The translations under genes and the position numbers were made by a program. Positions 4,413 through 52,129 of a stretch of 64,000 nt of DNA are shown here, one piece after another (the stretch's first letter is position 1; each line of letters starts with the position of its first letter). The notes beneath the pieces are model-generated. The model made no database searches. It saw only the letters and a program-made list of their open reading frames with translations, and was not told the origin of the DNA. Origin of the DNA: Algoriphagus lutimaris (lineage in GTDB: Bacteria > Bacteroidota > Bacteroidia > Cytophagales > Cyclobacteriaceae); NCBI RefSeq assembly GCF_017051705.1, contig NZ_JAFIDJ010000002.1:1309151-1373150 (forward strand). Direction: 5' to 3'.

Positions 4413-5633
4413 CTAGATGATAAAAAGCTGGACTGCTAATCCTCCCAAAAGCCAGATATAGCTGAGAAAGGCAATGTATTTAAGAATGGTTTCCATGTTT
4501 TTACTTTTTGGTGCCATTTCTTTCATGTAGTGCATATCCTTATATTTTTTAAAGCCTAGCCAAATCAAATAACCTGAACCAATCAGAAATGAGACGTTTA
4601 GGAAAAAGGTATAATTTATTTGGAAATAGGATTCATCTTGAATACTTACCTGTGAAGGGTCAGGTAATACTCCTAAGAAGTCAAAGGAGTAATGGAGAAA
4701 TATCGAAGTGACAACTAATGAAGAAAGCAGCAGGAATAAAATGTATAGTGCCATTTTCCAACCATAGTATTTAGCATTGATCCTCAACACCGGAAATACT
4801 ACTAGATCACTGAAAATAAAGGCCATCACTCCTGCAAAACTTACCCCTTTTCCAAAGAGTAAAGCTGCCAGAGGGATATTACCCATAGAGCCTATAAAGG
4901 TCAAAAAAGCGGCTATAGGCCCAATAATCACGTGTTCTAGGATTTCTAGAAAGGAATAATCTGTCTTCCCCAGATTGCTGTTTATAAAGAGTGTTTGAAA
5001 AAAGGAATCGGGAATCAATGCTGCCACTATTCCGGCAATAGTGAACCCGATGGTAACATCTTTCCAAACCATTTTCCATTCCATACCATATTGACGTCCT
5101 ACTTTTGCCCAGCTTTTTTCGGATTGAACATTATCTTCACCAGTAACTCCCATTTCTTGCATCCCCATCTCTCCTTCTGATAGGTTTTTTTTGGCGGCTT
5201 TGATAAGTTTTAAAGGTTTGGTAATCCGGATTATTATCCAGCTGATCAAAATCAGTAGGATTCCTCCCAAGTATTCGCCAACAACGAACTGCCAGCCTAA
5301 AAAGATGGAAATGATAATTCCCAATTCGATGACTAAATTGGTGGAGGCAAGTAGAAAAGCGATGGAGGAAATAAAGCTAGCTCCTTTTTTGAAAAGTGAT
5401 TTGGTGGTGGCTAAAGCGGAGAAGCTACAGGAACTGCTAATAAATCCAAAAATGGTTCCCAGGAGAACCCCTTTTCCCTCTTTGCCTCCCATGGTCTGCT
5501 TCATTTTTTCTTCAGTTGCGAAGATTTGAATCAAGCTACTAATAAGATAACCTAATCCAAAGGCCCAAAAGGCCATCCAAAAAAAACCAAAACTTGTATT
5601 GGCAGCTTCTGCCCATTTTTCTAGAAATTCCAT
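4413..5633 (-). CDS. Permease of the ArsP/DUF318 family
   Basis: A 406-residue integral membrane protein with about ten hydrophobic segments and a hydrophilic loop at about 145-185. The SSSCSFSALA motif near residue 70 and the second-half IGSMGNIPLAALLFGKG segment mark the ArsP_1/DUF318 permeases, which include the methylarsenite exporter ArsP. The motif cysteine is present. No arsenic-resistance regulator or other ars gene is adjacent, so the substrate is open. A GTG at 5636 also opens the frame; the ATG at 5633 is preferred. Confidence 0.8.
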   Translation of the reverse strand: MEFLEKWAEAANTSFGFFWMAFWAFGLGYLISSLIQIFATEEKMKQTMGGKEGKGVLLGTIFGFISSSCSFSALATTKSLFKKGASFISSIAFLLASTNLVIELGIIISIFLGWQFVVGEYLGGILLILISWIIIRITKPLKLIKAAKKNLSEGEMGMQEMGVTGEDNVQSEKSWAKVGRQYGMEWKMVWKDVTIGFTIAGIVAALIPDSFFQTLFINSNLGKTDYSFLEILEHVIIGPIAAFLTFIGSMGNIPLAALLFGKGVSFAGVMAFIFSDLVVFPVLRINAKYYGWKMALYILFLLLSSLVVTSIFLHYSFDFLGVLPDPSQVSIQDESYFQINYTFFLNVSFLIGSGYLIWLGFKKYKDMHYMKEMAPKSKNMETILKYIAFLSYIWLLGGLAVQLFII

Positions 5634-5789
5634 CACAAAAGTTTTCTTCCTTAGGTTATTGAGATTTCAAAGATCATGCAAAGCGGGGTTTCATACTTGA
5701 TTCTTTGTACTGGGCGATAGGAGGTAGCATTTAAGAGGATGTTTTTCCTAACCATTCCCATATTGGGGTGGATTTTGCACATGGTTAGG

Positions 5790-6233
5790 TTGGCTCTTAA
5801 AAAGGTACGATTTAGCCTTTCTCCACATAGTTTTTCAATCCTTGGAGAAGAATGGCCCAAAAAAGGAAGATCTCTTAAAATGATCATTGCATTAAGGCTA
5901 CCCGATATGCCAAAAATTCACTGTTGTTTTTCCCACATCCCGACTGAGATCAAATCCAAATGTAGTAGGACTCCAATCCTCATCTGAGTCCGTCATATTG
6001 ATATGAAATGATTGATTTTCTTGGTACAGGATCACTTTCCCCTACCAATCATAGTCGGGGGTAAAAAAGAAATTTTATGTTCCATTCAATTCGGATAATC
6101 CTTTACATGATTTTGGCTGCCAGTTAATAAGTTCGACAGGGGTAGATATTGCTTGGAAAAGCTCTTCAATTGGACGATCAATCCACAGATCATGGTAGTA
6201 GATTGCGAAGGACTACGCATCAGAGGTATTCAT
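5790..6233 (-). pseudogene. Decayed SRPBCC (AHSA1/polyketide-cyclase-like) gene
   Basis: Reading the minus strand from the ATG at 6233 gives one frame that still looks like a START/SRPBCC protein: IDRPIEELFQAISTPVELINW, NFFFTPDYDW, GKVILYQENQSFHINMTDS, DEDWSPTTFGFDL, VNFWHIG, CNDHFKRSSF. It is interrupted by about six in-frame stops (after MNTSDA, after LNGT, after PDYDW, on both sides of the P in HIG-P-CNDHF, and after FFSKD), and the end near GPFFSKD looks frameshifted. The start overlaps the nitrilase stop as ATGA, as in a working operon. The rest of the gap down to 5651 has a short open stretch I cannot identify. Confidence 0.75.
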
Positions 6234-7156
6234 TGAGATTCTTTGCTAATGGAAGGTTGTTCTTTGACTATTAATTCAAAGATGTCAGGTCGGCTATAAT
6301 GCCCAATTGGGTCAAAGTCCAGCTTGCTTTTAAGGATCTCCCCCAGATCAATTTCCGCACATACTTTACCGGCTTCTCCAAAAAGGGGGCCTGCCAAAAT
6401 CTCTCCCATAGGAGATACGATGACGGATCCCCCTGCGCAGATTGTTTCAGGATCATCCTTAAGTTCTTTTTGAAGAGATTCGGGATACATGGATTTGGTA
6501 AAATATTGGTTGCAACCTAGTACAAAGCATCTTCCTTCCAGTCCAATGTGCTTCATGGTGGAGGTCCAATTTTCCCGGGCATCAGCAGTAGGTGCGATAT
6601 AAATTTCTACTCCTTGATTATACATGGACATTCTGGCCATGGGCATGTAATTTTCCCAGCAGATCAATCCTCCCAATTTACCGATTTTGGTATCGAAGCT
6701 GACTAAGTACTTACCATCTGCTTCTGCCCAGACCAAGCGTTCTGTTCCTGTGGGTTTGATTTTTCTATGTACGCCAAGAAATCCTGCGGAGGGAGAAATA
6801 TAGATCATCGAACAAAACAAACTCCCGTGCAATTTTGACTTTTCAGTTACGCCAATTACCAGATAGGTGCCCAGTTTTTTACTGAGTTTCACAAGTCTTT
6901 GCAGATCTTCACTATCCAGATCAAAACTATGTTTGTGATATTCAGCATAGAGTGCTCTGCCTTCTTCTGAACGACTTCCTATTCTGGCCCCAAAGCCGAA
7001 ACCTCTGGGATATCCAGGAATAAAGGACTCTGGAAATACGATCAATTGATATCCCTCTTTGGCATTTTGTGTACAAAGTTTCTCCACCTTCTGTAGAGTT
7101 TTTTCTTTATCAAAAAAAATGGGGTGATCCTGAATTAGACAGACTTTCAGCTTCAT
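6230..7156 (-). CDS. Nitrilase family carbon-nitrogen hydrolase
   Basis: A 308-residue C-N hydrolase of the nitrilase superfamily with the full catalytic triad: Glu43 (VFPESFIPGYP), Lys about 132 (HRKIKPTGTERLVW) and Cys166 (GGLICWENYMP). The RKIKPTxxER and CWENYMP forms are those of true nitrilases/cyanide hydratase relatives rather than of amidases, so a nitrile-to-carboxylate reaction is likely. It is cytoplasmic. The gene is followed at ATGA overlap by the dead SRPBCC gene, so a former two-gene unit has probably lost its second member. Confidence 0.88.
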   Translation of the reverse strand: MKLKVCLIQDHPIFFDKEKTLQKVEKLCTQNAKEGYQLIVFPESFIPGYPRGFGFGARIGSRSEEGRALYAEYHKHSFDLDSEDLQRLVKLSKKLGTYLVIGVTEKSKLHGSLFCSMIYISPSAGFLGVHRKIKPTGTERLVWAEADGKYLVSFDTKIGKLGGLICWENYMPMARMSMYNQGVEIYIAPTADARENWTSTMKHIGLEGRCFVLGCNQYFTKSMYPESLQKELKDDPETICAGGSVIVSPMGEILAGPLFGEAGKVCAEIDLGEILKSKLDFDPIGHYSRPDIFELIVKEQPSISKESQ

Positions 7157-7284: not shown

Positions 7285-8343
7285 ATGGAAGAGATTCAGA
7301 AACAAGACATTCGCAAATTAAGCCTCGCTGAACTGGAAGCGTTCTTTTTGTCCCACGGGGAAAAGAAATTCCGGGCCAAGCAGGTTTATGAATGGCTATG
7401 GAATAAGTCCTTAAAGAATTTTGATGACATGAGTAATATTTCTCTTAGTACGAGAGAATTGTTAAAATCTCATTTCACCATCAACCATATTCGAGTGGAT
7501 CTAATGCAGCATTCAGAAGATGGGACCATCAAGAATGCGGTTAAGTTATTTGATGACAAAATTGTTGAATCTGTCTTAATTCCGACTTCCAAAAGAATTA
7601 CGGCTTGTGTGTCTTCCCAAGTAGGCTGTAGTTTGGATTGTAATTTTTGTGCTACTGCCCGTTTAAAGCGGATGCGAAATCTCAATCCAGATGAAATCTA
7701 TGACCAGGTAGTGGCGATTAAAGACGAGGCGGAAACCTATTTTCAGCGTCCCTTAACCAATATCGTTTTTATGGGAATGGGTGAGCCTTTACTAAACTAT
7801 GCCAATGTGCTGGCCGCCATTGATAAAATTACCTCACCAGAAGGATTGGGTATGGCTGCAAGGAGAATCACCTTATCTACTGTTGGGGTGACAAAGATGA
7901 TTCGCAAAATGGCAGATGATGGCGTTAAATTTAATTTGGCGGTATCCCTTCACTCGGCCATCAACGAAACCCGTTCAAGACTTATGCCGATCAATGATTC
8001 CAATCCAATCGAAGAGTTGGGGGAGGCTTTAAAATACTGGTATCAAAAGACAGGTAGAAAAGTAACCTACGAATATGTGATTTGGGATGGGGTGAATGAT
8101 GATGAACGTCATGCGAAGGCATTGGCTAAATTTTGCAAAATCATTCCATCAAAAGTAAATATCATCCAATATAATCCGATTGACGAAGGAGAATTCAGAC
8201 AGGCAAAACAAGAGGCAGTAGATATGTATGTGAGGATATTGGAAAGTCAGGGAATTATTGCCAAGGTTCGTAAATCCAGAGGACAAGACATTGATGCTGC
8301 CTGTGGCCAGTTGGCAAATAAAAATGAAGTAGCTGAGATCTAA
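7285..8343 (+). CDS. rlmN: Dual-specificity RNA methyltransferase RlmN
   Basis: A 352-residue radical SAM enzyme that methylates C2 of A2503 in 23S rRNA and, in the family, A37 of some tRNAs. The radical-SAM cluster motif is CSLDCNFC (CxxxCxxC, about residues 115-122), preceded by ITACVSSQVG. GMGEPLLNY and RITLSTVGV follow as SAM-binding elements, and the C-terminal GQDIDAACGQL carries the methyl-carrying Cys. The N-terminal accessory helix domain (KFRAKQVYEWLWNK) is typical. Length and motif spacing are normal for the family. Confidence 0.97.
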   Translation: MEEIQKQDIRKLSLAELEAFFLSHGEKKFRAKQVYEWLWNKSLKNFDDMSNISLSTRELLKSHFTINHIRVDLMQHSEDGTIKNAVKLFDDKIVESVLIPTSKRITACVSSQVGCSLDCNFCATARLKRMRNLNPDEIYDQVVAIKDEAETYFQRPLTNIVFMGMGEPLLNYANVLAAIDKITSPEGLGMAARRITLSTVGVTKMIRKMADDGVKFNLAVSLHSAINETRSRLMPINDSNPIEELGEALKYWYQKTGRKVTYEYVIWDGVNDDERHAKALAKFCKIIPSKVNIIQYNPIDEGEFRQAKQEAVDMYVRILESQGIIAKVRKSRGQDIDAACGQLANKNEVAEI

Positions 8344-8394
8344 TGGTGTTGAATTTGTTTTTAGTACTATCCAATCAGTTTTGAATTAAGATCT

Positions 8395-8865
8395 ATGAAA
8401 AAATATATACTCCTCTTTTTTGCATGTTTTGTGATCAGTTTCATTGCTTCCGCTCAATCACAAGGCGACAGTAGAATCCATACTTTAGGCACCTATGGGT
8501 TGCGATACAAATACTTTGGAATAGGAGCGGGATGGGAGTTTTTTTTCGTGGATAATTTTTCCTTTATGCCTAGCTACACTAAGGTTTTTCCGAATGTTGG
8601 AAAAGCGAGTAATTTTAGTGCGGATCTCAGGTATTATATTTCTGTAGAGAGTTCCCAGTTATATTTTATGGCTGGATATAGTCAAAATTGGGAAAATACG
8701 AATCCTGATGGTGCTGGAACTAATAGAAATGTAAAGGGAGCAAATGTAGGAATAGGAGCCTATATTCCTTTGGTAGATTGGGTAGGGTTAAGCACCGAAT
8801 TTAAATTCCAAAGTCAATACCCTCGAGAGGCAGGTTTTCGATTTGGTCTTGCGTTTCCTTTATAA
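8395..8865 (+). CDS. Small outer-membrane beta-barrel-like protein
   Basis: A 156-residue protein with a clear signal peptide (MKKYILLFFACFVISFIASAQ). The mature part consists of alternating hydrophobic/polar strands rich in aromatic residues and glycine (YGLRYKYFGIGAGWEFFF, SSQLYFMAGYSQNW, GANVGIGAYIPL, EAGFRFGLAFPL), as in small outer-membrane barrels. I do not recognise a named family. It ends one base before the convergent rhomboid gene. Confidence 0.65.
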   Translation: MKKYILLFFACFVISFIASAQSQGDSRIHTLGTYGLRYKYFGIGAGWEFFFVDNFSFMPSYTKVFPNVGKASNFSADLRYYISVESSQLYFMAGYSQNWENTNPDGAGTNRNVKGANVGIGAYIPLVDWVGLSTEFKFQSQYPREAGFRFGLAFPL

Positions 8866-8866
8866 A

Positions 8867-9799
8867 TTATTTCTTACTGAATTCGAATAACTTTCTTTTT
8901 TCCTCTTTGGAAAGAGCTTCATATCCTTTCTCGGCGATTTTATCCAAAATAAGATCAATTTCTTCCTGAGAAGATTCGCTGGATTTTACAGTAGGCTTAG
9001 AACTTGGAGCCGCTTTCGAAAATGGCTTAAACGAACTAGATTTTTTAGGTCTTCGATAGGTGACATTGATTTTCTGCCTTTTGGAAAATAAGTTTTCGAA
9101 GAATATCCCGACTTTTTGAATAGGGATTCCCCAGTCTGTTCCTTTTCTTAACTGAACGATGTATAGATATCCCATTAAGGCACCTCCCAAGTGAGCCAAC
9201 TCTCCACCTGCATTCGCGCCAGCAGAATTTGCAAATGAGAGGATCACATAAAATATCGCGATGTATTTTATCTTAACAGGGCCGAGTAAGATTAAGAAAA
9301 AGGTGGTGTTTGGACTTAAAGTAGCCGCTCCAACCACGATCGCAAATACTCCAGCACTGGCTCCAAGCATCAAAGAAGAGTTGAGCGAATTTTGGAAATA
9401 AGGGGCAAGATTGTAAATCAAAACATAAAATAGAGCACCGGTCAATCCCCCTAATATGTATAGGTTGGCAAGCTTCCGACTTCCCAAGTATTGGTGGATC
9501 AATTGACCAAACCAATACAAGAACAACATATTGAAGAGAATATGGAATATCCCTTCATGCATGAACATATAGGAAAGCACAGCCCAAGGTTGGGTGGCTA
9601 AAGTGGTTAAAGAGGCAGGCATCATAAACTTCGCTATCCCCGCACTGTAGAGTTCCCCAAACCCAGTAATAGTTAGAAGTACTCTGGATACCAATAGCAC
9701 CAAGAATACCAGAATATTGATCGCAATCAGCTTAAAGAGGCTGTTGTTATCATGCCGGAAGGCGTTTCGAAGATTTTCCCAAAAATTTCCGTACATCAT
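8867..9799 (-). CDS. Rhomboid intramembrane serine protease (second of tandem pair)
   Basis: A 310-residue polytopic protease that cuts substrates within the membrane. The catalytic Ser148 lies in GASAG and His203 in ELAHLGG; HILFNM (about 86-91) matches the family HxxxN motif. About six helices end near residue 218, followed by a 90-residue cytosolic tail rich in Ser/Pro/Lys (about 240-280) and an acidic/basic C-terminal helix (KEEKRKLFEFSKK). Its ATG directly abuts the stop of the upstream rhomboid gene (TAAATG). A second ATG is 3 bases on. Confidence 0.9.
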   Translation of the reverse strand: MMYGNFWENLRNAFRHDNNSLFKLIAINILVFLVLLVSRVLLTITGFGELYSAGIAKFMMPASLTTLATQPWAVLSYMFMHEGIFHILFNMLFLYWFGQLIHQYLGSRKLANLYILGGLTGALFYVLIYNLAPYFQNSLNSSLMLGASAGVFAIVVGAATLSPNTTFFLILLGPVKIKYIAIFYVILSFANSAGANAGGELAHLGGALMGYLYIVQLRKGTDWGIPIQKVGIFFENLFSKRQKINVTYRRPKKSSSFKPFSKAAPSSKPTVKSSESSQEEIDLILDKIAEKGYEALSKEEKRKLFEFSKK

Positions 9800-23167: not shown

Positions 23168-25516
23168 TTAAAACTCAACACGATAGCTCAGTATAGGGAT
23201 TAATGGAGCTTGATAGGAGGTTTTAATCTCATTGTCCATAGGTTCGAAATAGCTTCCATAGATGTTTTTTCTATTGGTGGCATTTTGGATATCCAAGGCC
23301 CAAGTACGAGTAGATTTTGCCTTATTTCTTTTTAGGCTTATCCTAAAATCAGTCCTGAAGTAAGCGGGATTTTGAGTTTCAAATGCCTTTGCGTCATCCA
23401 AAACGGTTTCTCCTTTTTCGATGGAGTGATCTAGCAAAATAGGAGTGGTTCTTAACCCTCCTCCGTAAATACCTCTAATGTTCACCCCTAAGGTTCTGTT
23501 TTTTTGAAGAGGGAATTCTTTGCCTCCTGTAAAAGTGACATTGAGATTTCCATTATACCTCGTATTCCTCCACACATTTTCCTGAGTTTTATATTGTGAA
23601 TTATACAAAGAAGTAGATAGCAGGAAATAAAGATTGTTGTTGGTAAACTGTTCCAAAGTCAATTCAACACCATAATTTTTTACTAGCCCTTCATTAATTA
23701 ATGCGTCTGTTGCAAAAGACCATTGTTGATTGATGATTGAATAAGTTTCATTCTCCCCTTCTTTGATTGGAATTTGGAATAGATGCTGGTAGTAAGCTTC
23801 GATCTTCATTCTCAACAATGGGTTTAAGGATCGATCGTATCCGAATACAAAGTGATGGGATTTACTCAAATCCAAGTCCTTATTGGGTAGGATAATTTCT
23901 CCTTCCAACTCTTTTTCCGCGAAGTAAGTCCCAAGAGGTTGGACCTGACTATGCAGTCCATATCCAAAACTCAATCGTTGCTTTTCATCTAATTCATATG
24001 CGAGGCTAAATCGTGGCTCTAAAGAGTTTGAATTATTCAGGAGAAGTTGGAGGTAATGAAGCCCTAGGTTAAAAGTCACCCGCTCGCTGGCTTTATAATT
24101 CCATTGCGAAAATGCCTGGATACTTTGAGTATTCCCTTTTGAATTGGCATTAGTGATTATCTGATCCTGCTCCTCATCATAGCTGTTTAGGCGAATGTTA
24201 TAAAACAGTTGATTTAAATACACCCCACTTCGTAGACTGGATCTTGCGGATAGCTTTGAATTTAAAACCGAACTTAACGTGATTTTGGAGCTATTGAAGT
24301 GATCATCATACCTATTTTCATCCACGTATTCATTATCAAGTCTTGAACCTTTGTCTCCCAAAGTATTTCCAGATACCAATAGGGTAGTTTGAAGAAAATT
24401 AGAAGGATTGAGAGTTTGAGAATGTTTGATTCCAGCTGCACCAGTATTGGAAAGGAATTTTGAACTATAGCGATCACCTTCACTTTCCCAGGTAAGAGAG
24501 TCTTGCTCCGCATTGCTTTTTTGATTGCTCAATCCTCCAAAACCAAATAAGGTGATACTGCTGTTTTTACTTGTTGGGAGAAATATGTTAAATGATAAAT
24601 CTTGAAAATTGGTTACAAAATCTCCTAATGGAAGTCCTAGTTTGGAAAGTAAGGAAAGGGTGGAGTACCTATAGTTGATTAGGTAGGACCCTCGATACCC
24701 TGCTGCAATTGGACCTTCTGCAGCTAGATCCAAACCAAGGAATCCAGCTTGGATGGTAAATTCCTGATTTTCGTTATTCCCTTTTCTTAGGTTTAGATCA
24801 AATACACCGGAAAGTGCATTTCCGTATTCGGCAGTAAATGCCCCCGTTAGGAAATCGGAATTAGAAAGAAGCTGGCTACTTAAGATAGAAACTCCTCCTC
24901 CCGAAGTGCCGGGGTTTACAAAGTGGTTAGGGTTAGGAATTTCTATGCCCTCCATTCGCCACAATAATCCGTTTGGACTATTGCCACGAATAGAGATGTT
25001 GTTGTTTCCATCATCCGTGCTCACTACCCCAGAAAAAGAAGCTGCCATTCGTGCTGGATCATTGACTGCTGCAGCAAACTTTCTTGTCTCCTCTACAGAA
25101 AAAGTCCTACCGCTCACCACTATCATATCGTTGATTGTTCGATCCTTATCGCTGGCATTAACTACAAATTCCTGGATTTGTGTGATGTCTTCTTCCAGAG
25201 AAATTTGAAGTACCACTTCTTTGCCCGAATTCACTTGAATGTTTGGAAGGATCAGGTCTTTGTAGCCGACAAAACTTACTCTTAGTGTGTATTGGCCAAT
25301 AGGAACGTTTTTCATTCTAAACTCTCCATACTCATCGGTAATTTCACCAACCAGTGGATCTGTATTTAGAATCATAATGGTAGCTCCAGGCATGGTCACC
25401 TGACTGATTTGATCGACCACTTTTCCTCTAATTGTCTGACTTAATTCCTGTGAAAATCCAGGAAAACTGAAAAATGCTAGAAGCAAGGTTAAATAGAATA
25501 GGAATAGATATTTCAT
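23168..25516 (-). CDS. TonB-dependent receptor with carboxypeptidase-regulatory-like N-terminus
   Basis: A 782-residue outer-membrane transporter with a signal peptide (MKYLFLFYLTLLLAFFSFPGFSQ). A CarboxypepD_reg-like beta domain is at about 28-115 (IRGKVVD...GYKDLIL), then a plug (about 130-240; SIRGNSPNGLLWRMEGIEIPNPNHF, AEYGNALSGVFDL) and a beta-barrel to the C-terminal RVEF, which ends in the aromatic residue expected for barrel assembly. No STN domain is present. The start is the ATG at 25516; a TTG at 25537 is less likely. It is the last gene of the sigma/FecR locus. The ligand is unknown. Confidence 0.9.
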   Translation of the reverse strand: MKYLFLFYLTLLLAFFSFPGFSQELSQTIRGKVVDQISQVTMPGATIMILNTDPLVGEITDEYGEFRMKNVPIGQYTLRVSFVGYKDLILPNIQVNSGKEVVLQISLEEDITQIQEFVVNASDKDRTINDMIVVSGRTFSVEETRKFAAAVNDPARMAASFSGVVSTDDGNNNISIRGNSPNGLLWRMEGIEIPNPNHFVNPGTSGGGVSILSSQLLSNSDFLTGAFTAEYGNALSGVFDLNLRKGNNENQEFTIQAGFLGLDLAAEGPIAAGYRGSYLINYRYSTLSLLSKLGLPLGDFVTNFQDLSFNIFLPTSKNSSITLFGFGGLSNQKSNAEQDSLTWESEGDRYSSKFLSNTGAAGIKHSQTLNPSNFLQTTLLVSGNTLGDKGSRLDNEYVDENRYDDHFNSSKITLSSVLNSKLSARSSLRSGVYLNQLFYNIRLNSYDEEQDQIITNANSKGNTQSIQAFSQWNYKASERVTFNLGLHYLQLLLNNSNSLEPRFSLAYELDEKQRLSFGYGLHSQVQPLGTYFAEKELEGEIILPNKDLDLSKSHHFVFGYDRSLNPLLRMKIEAYYQHLFQIPIKEGENETYSIINQQWSFATDALINEGLVKNYGVELTLEQFTNNNLYFLLSTSLYNSQYKTQENVWRNTRYNGNLNVTFTGGKEFPLQKNRTLGVNIRGIYGGGLRTTPILLDHSIEKGETVLDDAKAFETQNPAYFRTDFRISLKRNKAKSTRTWALDIQNATNRKNIYGSYFEPMDNEIKTSYQAPLIPILSYRVEF

Positions 25517-25592
25517 GGGATTCGTATTTTTTGGCAAAGAAATTCCAGTCTGATCCTAAATCAGGGATGGATTTGTATGGTTTAAAAAGGGA

Positions 25593-26789
25593 TTAGAAGA
25601 ATCGGATTCCGGCTCTGAAGCCAAACCAGAATTGGCCACTTAGATCAGAGTTATATCGGTAGGTTTTTTCAGATATCAGCTTAAAATTGTTGTATAAAAA
25701 CAGGTCTGGATGCTGATCGTAGGAGTTTTCATACAATCTGTAATTGATTGTAGGACCCACAAAAACCCCGAATTTATTTGCCGCTTGAAAGTCAAATCCA
25801 ATATAGAATCGATTGATCAAATTTAAAGCTTCCACATTACCACGATTGAGTTGCTCGGAGGTAAGCTCAACGTTCAAAAAAGTTTTTCTACCAAGTCTGG
25901 GAGAAGATCCGATTCCATAACCAAAAGACCAAGTGGTGAATTCAGTGTTTTCTGGACGGATTCCGGCAAAAAGAATATTATAGAAACTTCTCATTCCTGT
26001 TCTGAAGGCCAGATTAAGAGGTAGGATCTCATTGGTGCTGATCTCAAAGGTATGATAACCGTTTTTGATGATGCTTAGCAAACCAATCGGCACGCCTGTA
26101 ATGCTATCTGAATAATTGATCAATCCGATCTGCGTGCCTTCCACATTTTTTGCAAAGTTCAGGATACCTGCAATCTGGGCTCCTTGGATATCTTTAGAAG
26201 TAAAATTTATCAGGCCTGCTAGTTGCGTACCTTTAACCTCACCTCTTGCAAAGTTTACCAAACCGGCAGCTTGTACGCCCTCTAGACTATTTCCTGCATA
26301 ATTCACGATCCCAGCCCCTTGGAATCCTCGGATACTTTGACCGGTGAAATTTATCAGACCTGCAAGTTGTGCCCCTTCCAAAGATGCAGCAGTAAAATTG
26401 ACAAGACCTGCTCCCTGAACAGCTTTGACTGAGTCTAAAGCCGTGTTTACCAAGCCGGCAAATTGAACTCCGGTTACCTTTCCGCCAACCTGATTAAACA
26501 GCCCCGCCATTTGGACGGACTGCATATCAAATCGATTGATATTGAATAATCCTGCAAGTTCAAGTTTCGAAGTACCCGCGGAATATCCGCCGAGCAGGTT
26601 GAAAGAAAAACCATTGATATAATTTCCTGAATTAGTGCCATTGGTTCCAACATATGGTAAAATCGAAATTTGTAATTCCGTATGGCGAATTTCATTGGAA
26701 GATGAATTTTCCTCGGTTTGTGTGATTCCTGAAAGTGGGTTCAGGGCAAAGAAAATCAATGCCCCGAACAATTTGTTAAATGTTTTCAT
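25593..26789 (-). CDS. Secreted 16-residue-repeat protein (GxQxAGLxN), LA_2272-like
   Basis: A 398-residue exported protein (signal peptide ending near SGITQ). From about residue 75 to 245 it is built of 16-residue units: KLELAGLFNINRFDMQ, SVQMAGLFNQVGGKVT, GVQFAGLVNTALDSVK, then six more and degenerate ends. A C-terminal region of amphipathic strands ending GFRAGIRFF looks like an outer-membrane barrel. The repeat recalls the surface-repeat family named after Leptospira LA_2272; function unknown. It is a paralogue of the upstream gene but lacks its STN domain and has two more repeats. Confidence 0.75.
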   Translation of the reverse strand: MKTFNKLFGALIFFALNPLSGITQTEENSSSNEIRHTELQISILPYVGTNGTNSGNYINGFSFNLLGGYSAGTSKLELAGLFNINRFDMQSVQMAGLFNQVGGKVTGVQFAGLVNTALDSVKAVQGAGLVNFTAASLEGAQLAGLINFTGQSIRGFQGAGIVNYAGNSLEGVQAAGLVNFARGEVKGTQLAGLINFTSKDIQGAQIAGILNFAKNVEGTQIGLINYSDSITGVPIGLLSIIKNGYHTFEISTNEILPLNLAFRTGMRSFYNILFAGIRPENTEFTTWSFGYGIGSSPRLGRKTFLNVELTSEQLNRGNVEALNLINRFYIGFDFQAANKFGVFVGPTINYRLYENSYDQHPDLFLYNNFKLISEKTYRYNSDLSGQFWFGFRAGIRFF

Positions 26790-26833
26790 AGTGTTGGTTT
26801 AGATTTCGTATCTAAGACAATCAAAATCTTTTT

Positions 26834-26843
26834 TACCCCTATG
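26834..26843 (-). promoter_or_regulatory. CATAGGGGTA element upstream of repeat-protein gene
   Basis: The minus-strand 10-mer CATAGGGGTA lies 44 bases before the ATG of the STN-less repeat gene. The same 10-mer is found upstream of the sigma-factor gene of this locus (30184-30193). It may be a shared ECF promoter element or operator; this is inference from two copies. Confidence 0.4.
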
Positions 26844-26869
26844 AAGCATGAGTATTTTTAGAAAAAAAA

Positions 26870-28549
26870 TTAAAAAAAGCGGATTCCAGCCCGGAAACCC
26901 CACCAAAGCTGTGATTTAATATCATCTTGGGAGTCTTGTTCAGAGATAATTTTTGGAGAAGTATAGGTAAATAATTCTGGGTGATCTGAATACGAACTAT
27001 CGTAAACTCTCCAATTAATACTGGGGCCTGCGAAGATTCCAACCTTATTGGCGAACTGGTAATCCAATCCCAAATAGCCTCGGTTGATCAAGTTTAAGGC
27101 TTCCAAATTTCCCTTCAAGAGCTGCTGGGAACTCAATTCGATATTGAGAAACAACTTATTTCCCAATTTGGGGGAGCTTCCTACTCCGTACCCAAAAGTC
27201 CAAGTGACTGAATCCGCCTTTTCAGGTCTCATCCCGGCAAAAATCATATTGTAAAACCCTCTGGCACCTGTTCTCAATGAGATATTCAAAGGCAACATTT
27301 CATCGGCTCCAATTTCCACTTTATGGTATCCTTTTCTGACAAAACTGATCAGGCCAATAGGGGTCCCAGAAGTACTGTCTGAATAGTTGAATAAGCCCAA
27401 TTGAAAACCCTTGACATTTTTGGCAATATTGAGGACAGCAGAGATTTGGCCGCCTTCGACATCATGATGGGTGTAGTTGGTGACTCCTGCTAATTGTACT
27501 CCCCTAAGATCTGAGGTGACGATATTCAATACGCCCGCTGTTTGAACTCCTGAAACAGGACCTGAGGAAAAGTTGCCTATTCCTGCACCTTGAAAACCTG
27601 TCACCGCATCCAGATTGATATTGGTTAATCCTGCTACTTGGAATCCCTTTACCGTTCCGCCCACTTGATTAAAAAGACCTGCAGCTTGAAAATATTGTAC
27701 ATTTCTGCGGTTGATGTTAAAAAGCCCTCCAATTTCAGCTTTGTTGGTTCCTCCTGAGAAACCTCCTAAAATATTGAGAGAGAAATCATTGACCACAGAT
27801 CCACTTATTTTTCGGTTCGTTCCTATAAAGGGTACAAAAGATGCCTGAAATCCACGGGATAAGGTATCTTGAATATTTTCCAGGTTGGTAAAGCCTACCG
27901 AATTGGAAGTCCAAGCCCAGAAATTTTTCATCGGTTCAGTCAGGCTTCGAACTATCGGAGAGGCATTTTCACCCGCTGCCTTCAAAAAGATTTTTCGAAA
28001 CCTGGAGTTTCTACTTTCAATAAGTAAGGTGTCAGCATAATCTTTTTTGTTGACGATCAACTGGAAATTCTCCTCCGCAGGGTTTTTTACTTGAAATTGG
28101 AAAAAGCCAAATTCATCAGTAGTAGATGATTGTAGAGTGATGGGGTTATAAACAGTAGCATTTTTTATACGCTCTCCGGATTGCTCGTCCACCACATATC
28201 CACTGATGGTAATTTCTTTTTCAGCGGGAGGTGCTGGAGTCAATATCAGATAAACCCCTTTTTGTTTATAATTGACCGCGCCATTAAAAACTTCTTCCAA
28301 TACTTCCCTACAGGATTGATCTGAGAAGTTACCGCTTATGTTTCTGTTTACATCCAGAGCGGAGGGACTGTAGGAAAATACTCCTCCTACTTCTTTAGAA
28401 AGCCTGTTTAAAAAACCGTCTAATGGTTCTTCCTGAGCTTCGATGGTAACCCTTTTTTCCAATAAGGATGTCTGTTGAGCATCAACGGAATGGTAGCTGC
28501 CAAGCAATAATAGGACGGCTATTATAGGCCTGTAAAAGGTATGTTCCAT
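26870..28549 (-). CDS. STN-domain protein with 16-residue GxQxAGLxN repeats and barrel-like C-terminus
   Basis: A 559-residue exported protein (signal peptide ending near SVDAQ). Domains in order: STN at about 30-105 (VTIEAQEEPLDGFLNRLSKE, ISGNFSDQSCREVLEEVF), a carboxypeptidase-regulatory-like beta domain at about 112-195 (ISGYVVDEQSGERIKNATVY), a linker, seven 16-residue repeats plus degenerate ends at about 255-400, and a strand-rich C-terminus ending GFRAGIRFF. STN domains carry signals to FecR proteins; here FecR is encoded 9 bases upstream. Such a combination of STN with surface repeats on a non-TonB protein is unusual. Confidence 0.8.
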   Translation of the reverse strand: MEHTFYRPIIAVLLLLGSYHSVDAQQTSLLEKRVTIEAQEEPLDGFLNRLSKEVGGVFSYSPSALDVNRNISGNFSDQSCREVLEEVFNGAVNYKQKGVYLILTPAPPAEKEITISGYVVDEQSGERIKNATVYNPITLQSSTTDEFGFFQFQVKNPAEENFQLIVNKKDYADTLLIESRNSRFRKIFLKAAGENASPIVRSLTEPMKNFWAWTSNSVGFTNLENIQDTLSRGFQASFVPFIGTNRKISGSVVNDFSLNILGGFSGGTNKAEIGGLFNINRRNVQYFQAAGLFNQVGGTVKGFQVAGLTNINLDAVTGFQGAGIGNFSSGPVSGVQTAGVLNIVTSDLRGVQLAGVTNYTHHDVEGGQISAVLNIAKNVKGFQLGLFNYSDSTSGTPIGLISFVRKGYHKVEIGADEMLPLNISLRTGARGFYNMIFAGMRPEKADSVTWTFGYGVGSSPKLGNKLFLNIELSSQQLLKGNLEALNLINRGYLGLDYQFANKVGIFAGPSINWRVYDSSYSDHPELFTYTSPKIISEQDSQDDIKSQLWWGFRAGIRFF

Positions 28550-28558
28550 TCGAAAAAA

Positions 28559-29536
28559 TTAATTGCAGGCTGCTCCTGAAAGTACGATATCACTTCCGTT
28601 TCTTTTAATATCTAAATTAAGCGTTTCAGAAATAATAGACAAAATGGTGTCCAGATCTTCATGTTCAAAATCTACTGTCAATCGGCAATTTCCAATATTT
28701 CCTTCCAAAATAATCTCAGTTTGATAGACTTGACTCAATTGGGCTACTACAAAAGCCAATTCTTGGTTGAGATAGGAAAAGGATTTAGTACTGTATGAAT
28801 CCACATTGGCATCAGCTTCTTCTTTCGAGAAATTACCTGTGTTTTTGTTAAATGTCCCCTTTTCTCCCGCTAGAAGTTGAATTCCCTTGGTTGATTGTAA
28901 ATACATTCTTACTTCCCCTTCCAAAACAGATACTTCTACCAATGGACTAGTTGGATAAGCTTTCACATTAAAGACTGTACCGATATCCTCAATAAACAAT
29001 TCATTGACTTGGACCTGCCATTTAACTTTTTTGTCCTCAGGAATTGAAATCAAGGATTCTCCGCTTAGTTTGATCAGCCCTGTTTTTTTACGTTCATTGT
29101 ATTCTACACTAACCTCTGAATCCCTATTTAAAGAGAGTTGGGTTTGATCTGGAAGTATTCGCGTCTCCACTTGATTCTCGCTCAAATACGTAAATTCTTC
29201 AGGAGCGGAAAGCTGTTGATAGATCAAGAAAGATACTGCGCAGATGAGGATGAAACTGGCAGCAATCCTCCATGGAGTAAAGAAAATTTGTTTTCCTTTT
29301 TTAGGGGGATGGATTTGTGGTTGGATTTTACTCCAGGCAAGGTCTGCATCAAACTGCTGGTCGGAACCTAGATTTGCTTTTTGAAAAATCAATAATTCAT
29401 CATCCAGCACTTTTTGATTCTCCTCCGATAGGGCACACCATTCCTTCAGTTCTTTTTCTTCTGAAGGACTGATTTCACCAACTATGTATTTGGCGATAAG
29501 GCTGTCAATATAGAATTCTTCCTGCTCGCTCATCAT
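28559..29536 (-). CDS. FecR family anti-sigma factor
   Basis: A 325-residue inner-membrane signal transducer. The cytoplasmic N-terminus (about 1-85) contains a conserved WC near 33 and an LAWSKIQPQI stretch, followed by one membrane segment (about 90-108). The periplasmic FecR domain is at about 118-215 (TRILPDQTQLSLNRDSEVSVEY, TVFNVKAYP), and the C-terminal DUF4974-like domain at about 250-322 (LAFVVAQLSQVYQTEIILEG). It should hold or activate the sigma factor encoded just upstream, whose stop its start overlaps. The STN protein just downstream is the natural periplasmic partner. Confidence 0.92.
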   Translation of the reverse strand: MMSEQEEFYIDSLIAKYIVGEISPSEEKELKEWCALSEENQKVLDDELLIFQKANLGSDQQFDADLAWSKIQPQIHPPKKGKQIFFTPWRIAASFILICAVSFLIYQQLSAPEEFTYLSENQVETRILPDQTQLSLNRDSEVSVEYNERKKTGLIKLSGESLISIPEDKKVKWQVQVNELFIEDIGTVFNVKAYPTSPLVEVSVLEGEVRMYLQSTKGIQLLAGEKGTFNKNTGNFSKEEADANVDSYSTKSFSYLNQELAFVVAQLSQVYQTEIILEGNIGNCRLTVDFEHEDLDTILSIISETLNLDIKRNGSDIVLSGAACN

Positions 29537-30111
29537 TCTAATATGATATGAAGTAGTAGGGCAATCAATGGAAGGTATTCCTGCAACTGGGTCCGCATCA
29601 GTTTCAGGGCTTTTCCCATTTGATTTTCTACTGTTTTAATCGATAAATTTAATTGATCAGCAATCTCTTGGTATTTCAACTCCTCAAATCTACTCATGGT
29701 GAATATTAACCGACATTGTTGAGGTAAGGATTGAAGTGCAAGGGCAATTTTTTCCTCCAATTCTCCTTTCAGGGTGCTTTGATCAGAAGCTTCACTATGC
29801 TGTTCTCCCTGTTGGGTTATCATATCTCCATAATTCTTCTTGACCTTTTGATGCTTGATCTCATTTAGACAGGCATTTCGGATGATCTGATAGAGATAGG
29901 ATTTGACCGAACTTTGGATGGAAATGTTTTCTCTTTTCTCCCAAAGCTTGATAAAGCAGGATTGTACTACTTCTTCGGCATCAGCAGGATCTTCCAGATA
30001 GGAATTCGCATAGCGACATAAGGGCTGATAATATTCTTTAAACAACATCTCCAGTGCTTTTTCATCACCTGACTTGATCGACTGAAAAATCATTTGATCG
30101 CTTGTTTGCAT
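29533..30111 (-). CDS. ECF RNA polymerase sigma factor (FecI-like, Bacteroidota type)
   Basis: A 192-residue sigma-70 family factor. Region 2 is LFKEYYQPLCRYANSYLEDPADAEEVVQSCFIKLWEKR (given here as a landmark: LFKEYYQPLCRY then AEEVVQSCFIKLWE), and region 4 is LPQQCRLIFTMSRFEELKYQEIA (landmarks LPQQCRLIF, ELKYQEIA, SIKTVENQMGKAL). A TTG at 30135 opens the frame; the ATG at 30111 is chosen. It overlaps the FecR gene by 4 bases. It probably directs transcription of this locus in response to the STN/FecR signal. Confidence 0.93.
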   Translation of the reverse strand: MQTSDQMIFQSIKSGDEKALEMLFKEYYQPLCRYANSYLEDPADAEEVVQSCFIKLWEKRENISIQSSVKSYLYQIIRNACLNEIKHQKVKKNYGDMITQQGEQHSEASDQSTLKGELEEKIALALQSLPQQCRLIFTMSRFEELKYQEIADQLNLSIKTVENQMGKALKLMRTQLQEYLPLIALLLHIILE

Positions 30112-30183
30112 GGAGGCATTTTGCTGTTCATGCAAGATAAGGTTTTGAATTGTTTTTATAAATAGGACAACTCAGAAGGAGCA

Positions 30184-30193
30184 TACCCCTATG
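30184..30193 (-). promoter_or_regulatory. CATAGGGGTA element upstream of sigma-factor gene
   Basis: The minus-strand sequence GCATAGGGGTATGC contains the same 10-mer CATAGGGGTA seen before the STN-less repeat gene, here embedded in a 5-bp inverted repeat around GGGG. It lies 72 bases before the chosen ATG (48 before the TTG). It is a candidate autoregulated promoter element. Confidence 0.4.
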
Positions 30194-51367: not shown

Positions 51368-52129
51368 TTAGGTTTGAGCTTTGAAACGATAGGTTTCATC
51401 GGTGAATTTACGGTAATCCCATTCAAAACTTCTCTCTTTGAAGGTTACATTTCCTGTTTTTTCTAAAACCAATGCAGAGCAGGAAACAGTTCCATAGTTA
51501 TCATTTAATCGGATGAATTGGGCAGAAAGTCCTTCCTCCATTTTAGGAGGTACTCCAGTATCCGGTAACTTTTCCAGAGGAAAGGTCTCTTTTGAGTTCA
51601 GGATATTTAATAAGGCATTTGCACTGATAGTGGATTCAAACTGCTCTATGAGCTGACTTTTTGCCAATTGCACTTTAGGCCAGGGATCATTCAATAAACC
51701 ATTGCTTAATCCATGAATTCCAGGTTCCACCTCCACAATATCTTCTCCATAATTGCTGTAGTAAAGCAAGTGGTTTCCATCCGATACGAGTAAGTTGAAT
51801 CCGTCGTATTTTTCTTGATTGGTTTGGACTTCTTTTAAATAATCTAGGGGTGAGGAACTACTTTCTAGAAAATTTTGAACCAGCTTTCCTCTACTGATGA
51901 GCGCTTTTTTTGGGTGATGAAAATCCCGATAATTAGTCAATAGGGACCATCTTCCATTAGGGTGAAATCCCATCCAGGTGCCTTCACTTTTCAAATCTTT
52001 CCCTGCATAAAATCCAGATTCCCAAAGATGGGTCTTTTTGCTTGGTCTAATGAAAAATTCATCTCGATTGGCTCGGATAACTAAGGGGTAATCGGGATGA
52101 TTTTTCCAGGAAAATACAACTAAGCACAT
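51368..52129 (-). CDS. NRDE/TANGO2 family protein
   Basis: A 253-residue cytoplasmic protein whose start MCLVVFSWKNHPDYPLVIRANRDEFF carries the NRDE signature after an N-terminal Cys, as in the TANGO2 (transport and Golgi organisation 2) family. GTWMGFHPNGRWSLLTNYR and HGLSNGLLNDPWPKV are further conserved blocks. A role in haem handling has been proposed for the eukaryotic relatives; the bacterial role is unknown. It lies 6 bases upstream of ypdA, so the two are probably cotranscribed. Confidence 0.88.
   Translation of the reverse strand: MCLVVFSWKNHPDYPLVIRANRDEFFIRPSKKTHLWESGFYAGKDLKSEGTWMGFHPNGRWSLLTNYRDFHHPKKALISRGKLVQNFLESSSSPLDYLKEVQTNQEKYDGFNLLVSDGNHLLYYSNYGEDIVEVEPGIHGLSNGLLNDPWPKVQLAKSQLIEQFESTISANALLNILNSKETFPLEKLPDTGVPPKMEEGLSAQFIRLNDNYGTVSCSALVLEKTGNVTFKERSFEWDYRKFTDETYRFKAQT

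Follow-up and report, generated by a model that had tools for sequence, protein, structure and literature searches.

We report a five-gene locus in a 64,000-nucleotide stretch of the Algoriphagus lutimaris genome (hereafter the window) that probably encodes a trans-envelope signalling system of the FecI-FecR type, in which an STN-bearing repeat barrel outside the TonB receptor family controls a FecR-type anti-sigma factor and its extracytoplasmic function (ECF) sigma factor, and in which an STN-less barrel paralogue, a TonB receptor and a Toastrack lipoprotein are the outputs. In textbook FecR-type signalling the outer-membrane partner is a nutrient transporter, namely an STN-bearing TonB-dependent receptor. 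The domains, gene order, conservation, common promoter sequence and phyletic co-occurrence described below were computed directly.

The five genes occupy the minus strand from position 30135 down to 23168, in the order ECF sigma factor, FecR, STN-repeat protein, STN-less repeat paralogue and STN-less TonB receptor (Table 1). The initial annotation had proposed this order, and all five open reading frames (ORFs) were found where it had placed them; it had also described the sigma, FecR and STN genes as translationally coupled or 9 bases apart, which agrees with the 4-base overlap between the sigma and FecR genes (29533-29536) and the 9-base gap that follows. The receptor gene starts 55 bases past the end of the paralogue gene. 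The sigma gene may start at ATG 30111 instead of the listed TTG 30135, because the starts of several orthologous sigma ORFs (e.g. those of loci L035 and L038-L040) correspond to residue 9 of the listed ORF. The anti-sigma factor carries FecR_C, the expected STN-partner domain, and it is the only protein of the genome to match PF04773 (FecR) at an E value of 0.001.

The central claim of the initial annotation, that STN is carried by the repeat protein and not by the TonB receptor, is borne out by Pfam and by profile matches of homologues. Of 26 aligned homologues of the 559-residue repeat protein, 19 reach E 0.01 or better against PF07660, the lowest value being 4.5e-19, and a Pfam scan of the window receptor finds Plug and no STN. 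The CarbopepD_reg_2 domain of the repeat protein reaches 28.3 bits, under its cut-off of 32.2. NCBIfam models for LA_2272 surface repeats score above cut-off in the 398-residue paralogue and slightly under it in the 559-residue protein, and the VC2662 model is matched far under its cut-off; the Pfam scan of the paralogue returned no family. Neither a Secretin domain nor TonB_C was detected in the STN-repeat protein by Pfam, in scans that recovered Secretin in the STN protein of locus L167 as a positive control; its C-terminus is the repeat domain. A PHROGs search gave no match. An outer-membrane location and a barrel fold are predicted for the repeat protein, and a C-terminal phenylalanine in 78 of 113 STN-repeat proteins fits such a barrel.

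Conservation was assessed in neighbourhoods picked mostly by the barrel and not by sigma or FecR genes. Searching with the 559-residue protein gave matches in 25 of 58 relatives, one of them the window genome itself; a repeat-barrel profile (A2), at E 1e-8 or better, hit 125 of the 291 genomes in the order and 99 of the 395 in the class. Neighbourhoods were taken from 60 of the 99 class matches, from 40 of the 125 order matches and from the hits of the first search, mostly as the best listed match per genome, going down the lists in a non-random choice. The resulting 131 loci, two named records among which may duplicate other genomes, include 128 with a repeat barrel; L061-L063 have none and were included for other reasons. 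For sigma, FecR, receptor and the domains we used profiles of our own, made from window homologues instead of taken from Pfam; receptors that differ from that of the window may therefore be missed.

The gene set is conserved across many Bacteroidota. The 131 loci hold 173 repeat-barrel ORFs, 113 of them with STN. Of the 113 STN-repeat genes, 105 directly follow a FecR gene of the same strand, and 96 follow both a sigma and a FecR gene; these 96 canonical loci span 95 genomes and 33 families out of the 125 genomes and 42 families examined. The neighbourhood survey thus upholds the initial annotation, the repeat genes being kept beside sigma/FecR genes in relatives. A TonB receptor of the window type follows within four genes downstream, on the same strand, in 49 of the 113 cases and occurs anywhere in the fetched stretch in 59. 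With our own profiles no recognised TonB receptor bears STN in any locus with an STN-repeat protein, and the same STN profile does detect the domain in the TonB receptors of two other loci, L062 and L063. One locus, L132, has two STN-repeat genes (5320-7038 and 7851-9578) close together behind a single sigma-FecR pair.

Table 1. Features of the signalling locus, in positions of the window
Feature	Position	Strand	Evidence
ECF sigma factor, TIGR02985 type	29533..30135	-	Pfam sigma r2/r4 and NCBIfam
FecR-type anti-sigma factor	28559..29536	-	FecR and FecR_C, both above Pfam cut-off
STN-repeat protein, 559 aa: STN, CarbopepD_reg_2, 16-residue GxQxAGxxN repeats and C-terminal outer-membrane-protein-like end (terminal F)	26870..28549	-	Pfam, NCBIfam, homologues
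STN domain, about residues 26-103	28241..28474	-	Boundaries set from alignment of homologues
CarbopepD_reg_2-like domain, residues 115-173	28031..28207	-	Pfam
Repeat-barrel domain, residues 234-559	26873..27850	-	Own profile A2
STN-less paralogue of the repeat barrel, 398 aa; probable sigma target	25593..26789	-	NCBIfam, tree, promoter
TonB-dependent receptor, 789 aa, CarbopepD_reg_2 and Plug	23168..25537	-	Pfam
Probable sigma promoter before sigma gene, TAGGGGTA-N13-TTGTC, 36.1 bits	30163..30194	-	Matrix score
Probable sigma promoter before repeat paralogue, 30.3 bits	26813..26844	-	Matrix score

Three loci have the repeat barrel directly after the sigma gene, without FecR or STN (L056:7241-9190, L154:382-2115 and L150:6076-7818). 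As judged by eye, the L056 and L154 proteins start with a short polar segment bearing a DW..M..L motif and continue through a hydrophobic helix into a long linker; the helix is not flagged by a hydropathy cut-off, Pfam finds no family in either protein, and the start of the L150 protein is unsure. These two relatives, and probably L150 as a third, have one chain on the same barrel in place of FecR and STN, in the manner of the dual membrane-spanning anti-sigma factors (Dma). In a quick barrel-domain tree of 168 rows, L056, L150 and L154 fall with two STN-barrels (support in the Shimodaira-Hasegawa-like approximate likelihood ratio test, SH-aLRT, of 91) inside a 22-row fork (96), with L056 on a long branch and the three single chains grouping together at a support of only 71. 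The same tree requires at least 9 changes between STN-bearing and STN-less labels on well supported branches, so there were repeated origins of STN-less paralogues or repeated losses of STN; within Algoriphagus and its kin, a group of 14 paralogues is sister to one of 15 STN-barrels.

Upstream regions of the sigma, paralogue and receptor genes were searched for a common promoter by comparing word-pair counts with those of shuffled sequences. A paralogue or receptor needed 50 or more upstream bases to be included (50 of 60 paralogues and 43 of 69 receptors; the latter also at 701-849 residues only). The top dyad occurred before 49 of 95 sigma genes (best in shuffles, 12), 28 of 50 paralogues (6) and 21 of 43 receptors (6), and the matrix consensus reads ATAGGGGTA-N13-TTGTC. 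At 12 bits or more the promoter was found before 58 of 96 sigma genes, drawn from 16 of 33 families, as well as before 35 of 50 paralogues and 22 of 43 receptors, counts for which training and test sets overlap, and in 0 of 146 shuffles; it also stands before 11 of 450 other genes of the same loci, several adjoining the system, and at this threshold before none of the three sigma genes of the Dma-like loci. In addition to the two sites of Table 1, the window holds a weak third match at 51954, without TTGTC. A scan for ordinary sigma-70 promoters found 24 sites, where shuffled sequences averaged 18.0 (standard deviation 3.8).

We propose that TAGGGGTA-N13-TTGTC is the sequence recognised by the sigma factor of the locus. 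Its exact form has 3 matches in the 4.7-Mb genome versus 1 for a reversed control. Within the genus, all 11 genomes that encode a close orthologue of the STN-repeat protein contain the exact pattern (32 matches, against 14 for the reversed control), as do 2 of the 4 with a distant-type protein, whereas the 21 genomes without the protein contain none (0 matches; control 18). This co-occurrence is partly trivial because the locus itself contributes sites. The initial annotation had treated paralogue and receptor as members of the locus and gone no further; the promoter that they have in common with the sigma gene makes both of them probable sigma outputs. In four loci (L038:9713-10318, L039:9592-10197, L040:6669-7331 and L127:8885-9538) a gene for 201-220 residues between paralogue and receptor bears a sigma promoter of 27-33 bits; its product matched OMP_b-brl in L038, the one scanned, and it is likely a further member of the regulon.

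The third exact site in the genome lies 263 bases before an unlinked gene for a 315-residue DUF4097 protein with, by eye, a lipoprotein-like start. According to PMC11237479, DUF4097 and DUF2807 are both Toastrack. DUF2807-like lipoprotein genes accompany the system in 23 loci (24 genes, the three scanned being confirmed), 10 of the 24 with a promoter site. Across the genus, where 15 of 36 genomes encode the STN-repeat protein, the subtype of this DUF4097 Toastrack gene, defined afterwards as E below 1e-60, is found in 12 of the 15 and in none of the other 21 (Fisher 3.6e-7; 4.2e-6 on counting the intermediate 35% Toastrack match of G032, which lacks the STN-repeat protein). Eleven of the 21 genomes without the protein are small (2.2-2.8 Mb) and 67-91% complete; with the remaining 10 alone the values are 1.1e-4 or 9.8e-4, all of them guides, the genomes of one genus being non-independent. 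The promoter matrix, untrained on Toastrack genes, gave a site of 15 bits or more for 11 of 12 copies of the subtype versus 0 of 18 other-subtype loci (one with only 93 bases upstream). Four genomes (G009, G017, G019 and G021) have TAAGGGT in the sigma promoter, and the same change recurs in the Toastrack promoter of G017, G019 and G021, not of G009; the repeat paralogues of all four have no promoter site. From these sequence comparisons, the STN-less repeat paralogue, the TonB receptor and the Toastrack lipoprotein are probably all outputs of the sigma factor.

There is good support for the repeat protein, rather than a transporter plug, being the STN partner of FecR, because FecR adjoins nearly every STN-repeat protein surveyed, matches only once in the genome, and is replaced in relatives by single chains that follow the sigma gene. 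In the mechanism that we favour, the periplasmic STN domain of the barrel would dock on the C-terminal domain of inner-membrane FecR and, depending on the barrel's state, would hold the ECF sigma factor or release it. By analogy with FoxA-FoxR, FecR would be held by STN until the barrel changes, when FecR would become exposed and the sigma factor free, the signal running from barrel to sigma; the freed sigma factor would then transcribe its own operon together with the STN-less barrel, the TonB receptor without STN and the unlinked Toastrack lipoprotein. Sensor and effector barrels would thus be separate paralogues, the STN-barrel being made together with sigma and FecR. The initial annotation had seen here a surface-sensing system in which the repeat protein passes the signal to FecR. 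The partnership with FecR is upheld by the adjacency, the single FecR and the single-chain relatives; its surface-sensing part fared less well, outer-membrane or envelope status being equally possible as the signal. The Toastrack outputs and the Dma-like swap point to envelope state, and ligand binding by the repeat surface could equally be what is sensed.

A number of results weigh against this mechanism. FecR is not directly upstream in 8 of the 113 cases. The STN match of the window protein reaches 21.5 bits, under the Pfam cut-off of 28.4, a call secured by the PF07660 matches of its homologues. Sequence searches of the PDB gave no useful solved relative, returning either no match or, in one search, four with E values of 0.38 or worse. 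The barrel and the contact of STN with FecR are therefore predictions, and the repeats might form membrane strands or a solenoid. The genome has two STN matches at E 0.001, and the second, on a 912-residue TonB receptor about 156 kb away (L061:7123-9861), could mark another partner of FecR; this receptor adjoins a DUF4249 gene, with no FecR within the fetched 16 kb. The promoter is lacking at 38 of 96 sigma upstreams, including all those of 17 of 33 families, in which either the specificity must differ or the site was missed. With one mismatch the pattern has 16 matches in the genome versus 39 for the reversed control, and with two there are 4 window matches versus 4.53 expected; because the mismatch counts do not exceed the control or expected level, only exact or high-scoring sites are meaningful. 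Even the exact pattern has 50 matches over 58 genomes versus 47 for the reversed control, so many off-locus matches are chance. Twenty of 30 off-locus sites were examined, of which 9 lie inside ORFs and 6 before a Toastrack gene; G022 and G030 have exact sites inside ORFs, away from the locus.

The sensor might be sought in the neighbouring TonB receptor, in a split transducer where substrate binding or import changes the repeat barrel and its STN domain signals to FecR. The receptor does follow within four genes in the 49 cases counted above, 46 of them among the 96 canonical loci and in 22 families; we nevertheless think this arrangement unlikely, for 54 of 113 STN-repeat proteins have no recognised receptor in the fetched stretch (some stretches stop at contig ends), and the sigma promoters found before receptors make the receptor look like an output. 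It is very unlikely that STN is here purely structural, serving oligomerisation as in secretins, with FecR adjacency reflecting co-regulation alone. Secretins do bear STN, and most of the further short-frame STN loci described below have a secretin-like gene arrangement, yet the window protein has no Secretin domain, the adjacency to FecR is nearly constant, and single chains replace FecR and STN together in relatives. We had entertained the idea that all short STN proteins are repeat barrels and rejected it: 20 more loci with a short STN frame were fetched, and 16 of them have one secretin-like layout in common (that of L167, the one scanned, whose STN protein has the Secretin domain; L178 is cut by a contig end, and five of the 16 are missed by our own STN profile). 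The other four (L179-L182), contributed by two genomes of a single family, combine sigma, FecR and STN with another barrel, of 434-483 residues, PF13568 being matched in two of the four, under cut-off; three continue with SprB-repeat proteins, two of these with tails of the type IX secretion system (T9SS), and the sigma promoter was found before none of the four.

A reading that differs from our preferred mechanism in the signal alone, and is compatible with it, is that the system senses outer-membrane or outer-membrane-protein assembly stress, the STN-barrel reporting its own folding or the state of the membrane and the outputs repairing or remodelling the envelope. The Dma-like single chains of the same barrel speak for it, as do the Toastrack outputs, whose domain is tied to envelope-stress systems in PMC11237479; the same paper argues that Toastrack is intracellular, whereas the copies here look lipoprotein-like by eye. 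We regard this version as possible but doubtful. More tentatively than the mechanism itself, at close to an even chance, the locus may belong to a class of trans-envelope sigma control distributed across Bacteroidota, in which interchangeable non-transporter barrels are tied to sigma factors through STN-FecR or covalently (Dma-like); its repeat-barrel branch would run the paralogue/receptor/Toastrack regulon via TAGGGGTA-N13-TTGTC as a sensor of outer-membrane status comparable in role to sigma-E.

If the favoured mechanism is correct, the locus breaks the assumption that FecR-type signalling is a property of TonB-dependent transporters, one barrel family connects the FecR and Dma designs, environmental bacteria gain a concrete regulon and promoter, and LA_2272 repeats and some Toastrack lipoproteins acquire a functional setting. 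STN without a TonB receptor and barrels controlling sigma factors are already known, from VreA (PMC2729926) and Dma (PMC13088901), respectively. Our literature search, whose coverage left out most subscription papers, found no FecR partner in which STN sits on a non-transporter repeat barrel, and no such promoter or regulon, VreA being nearest; a search on LA_2272 repeats, with partial coverage, found nothing relevant. The repeat sequence resembles the LA_2272 surface repeat and VC2662 models (NCBIfam NF047436 and NF047437), a comparison by model names, which state no function and no link to STN, sigma or FecR.

The locus shares with FecI-FecR-FecA and FoxI-FoxR-FoxA an ECF sigma factor, a FecR-type anti-sigma factor with a C-terminal STN-partner domain, an STN-bearing (here predicted) outer-membrane protein and probable autoregulation. 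In those systems the STN carrier is a TonB-dependent receptor, whereas here it is not, and the neighbouring receptor lacks STN and is an apparent target; because an STN-bearing receptor, the defining feature, is absent, we do not class the locus as FecA-type. Even in the absence of a signal, the FoxA signalling domain is bound to FoxR and shields it from proteolysis (PMC11637429). The PUMA3 system VreA-VreI-VreR of Pseudomonas aeruginosa likewise carries STN outside a TonB receptor, but VreA (PMC2729926) is a barrel-less 23-kDa protein with a TolA/TonB-like C-terminus, whereas STN is here joined to a repeat barrel. With Dma (PMC13088901) the locus has in common a non-transporter barrel that would control a sigma factor, and L056 and L154 (L150 is unsure) show, by eye, the Dma layout itself; in Dma a single chain reaches all the way from the cytoplasm to the outer membrane, whereas the window system splits the work between FecR and the STN-barrel.

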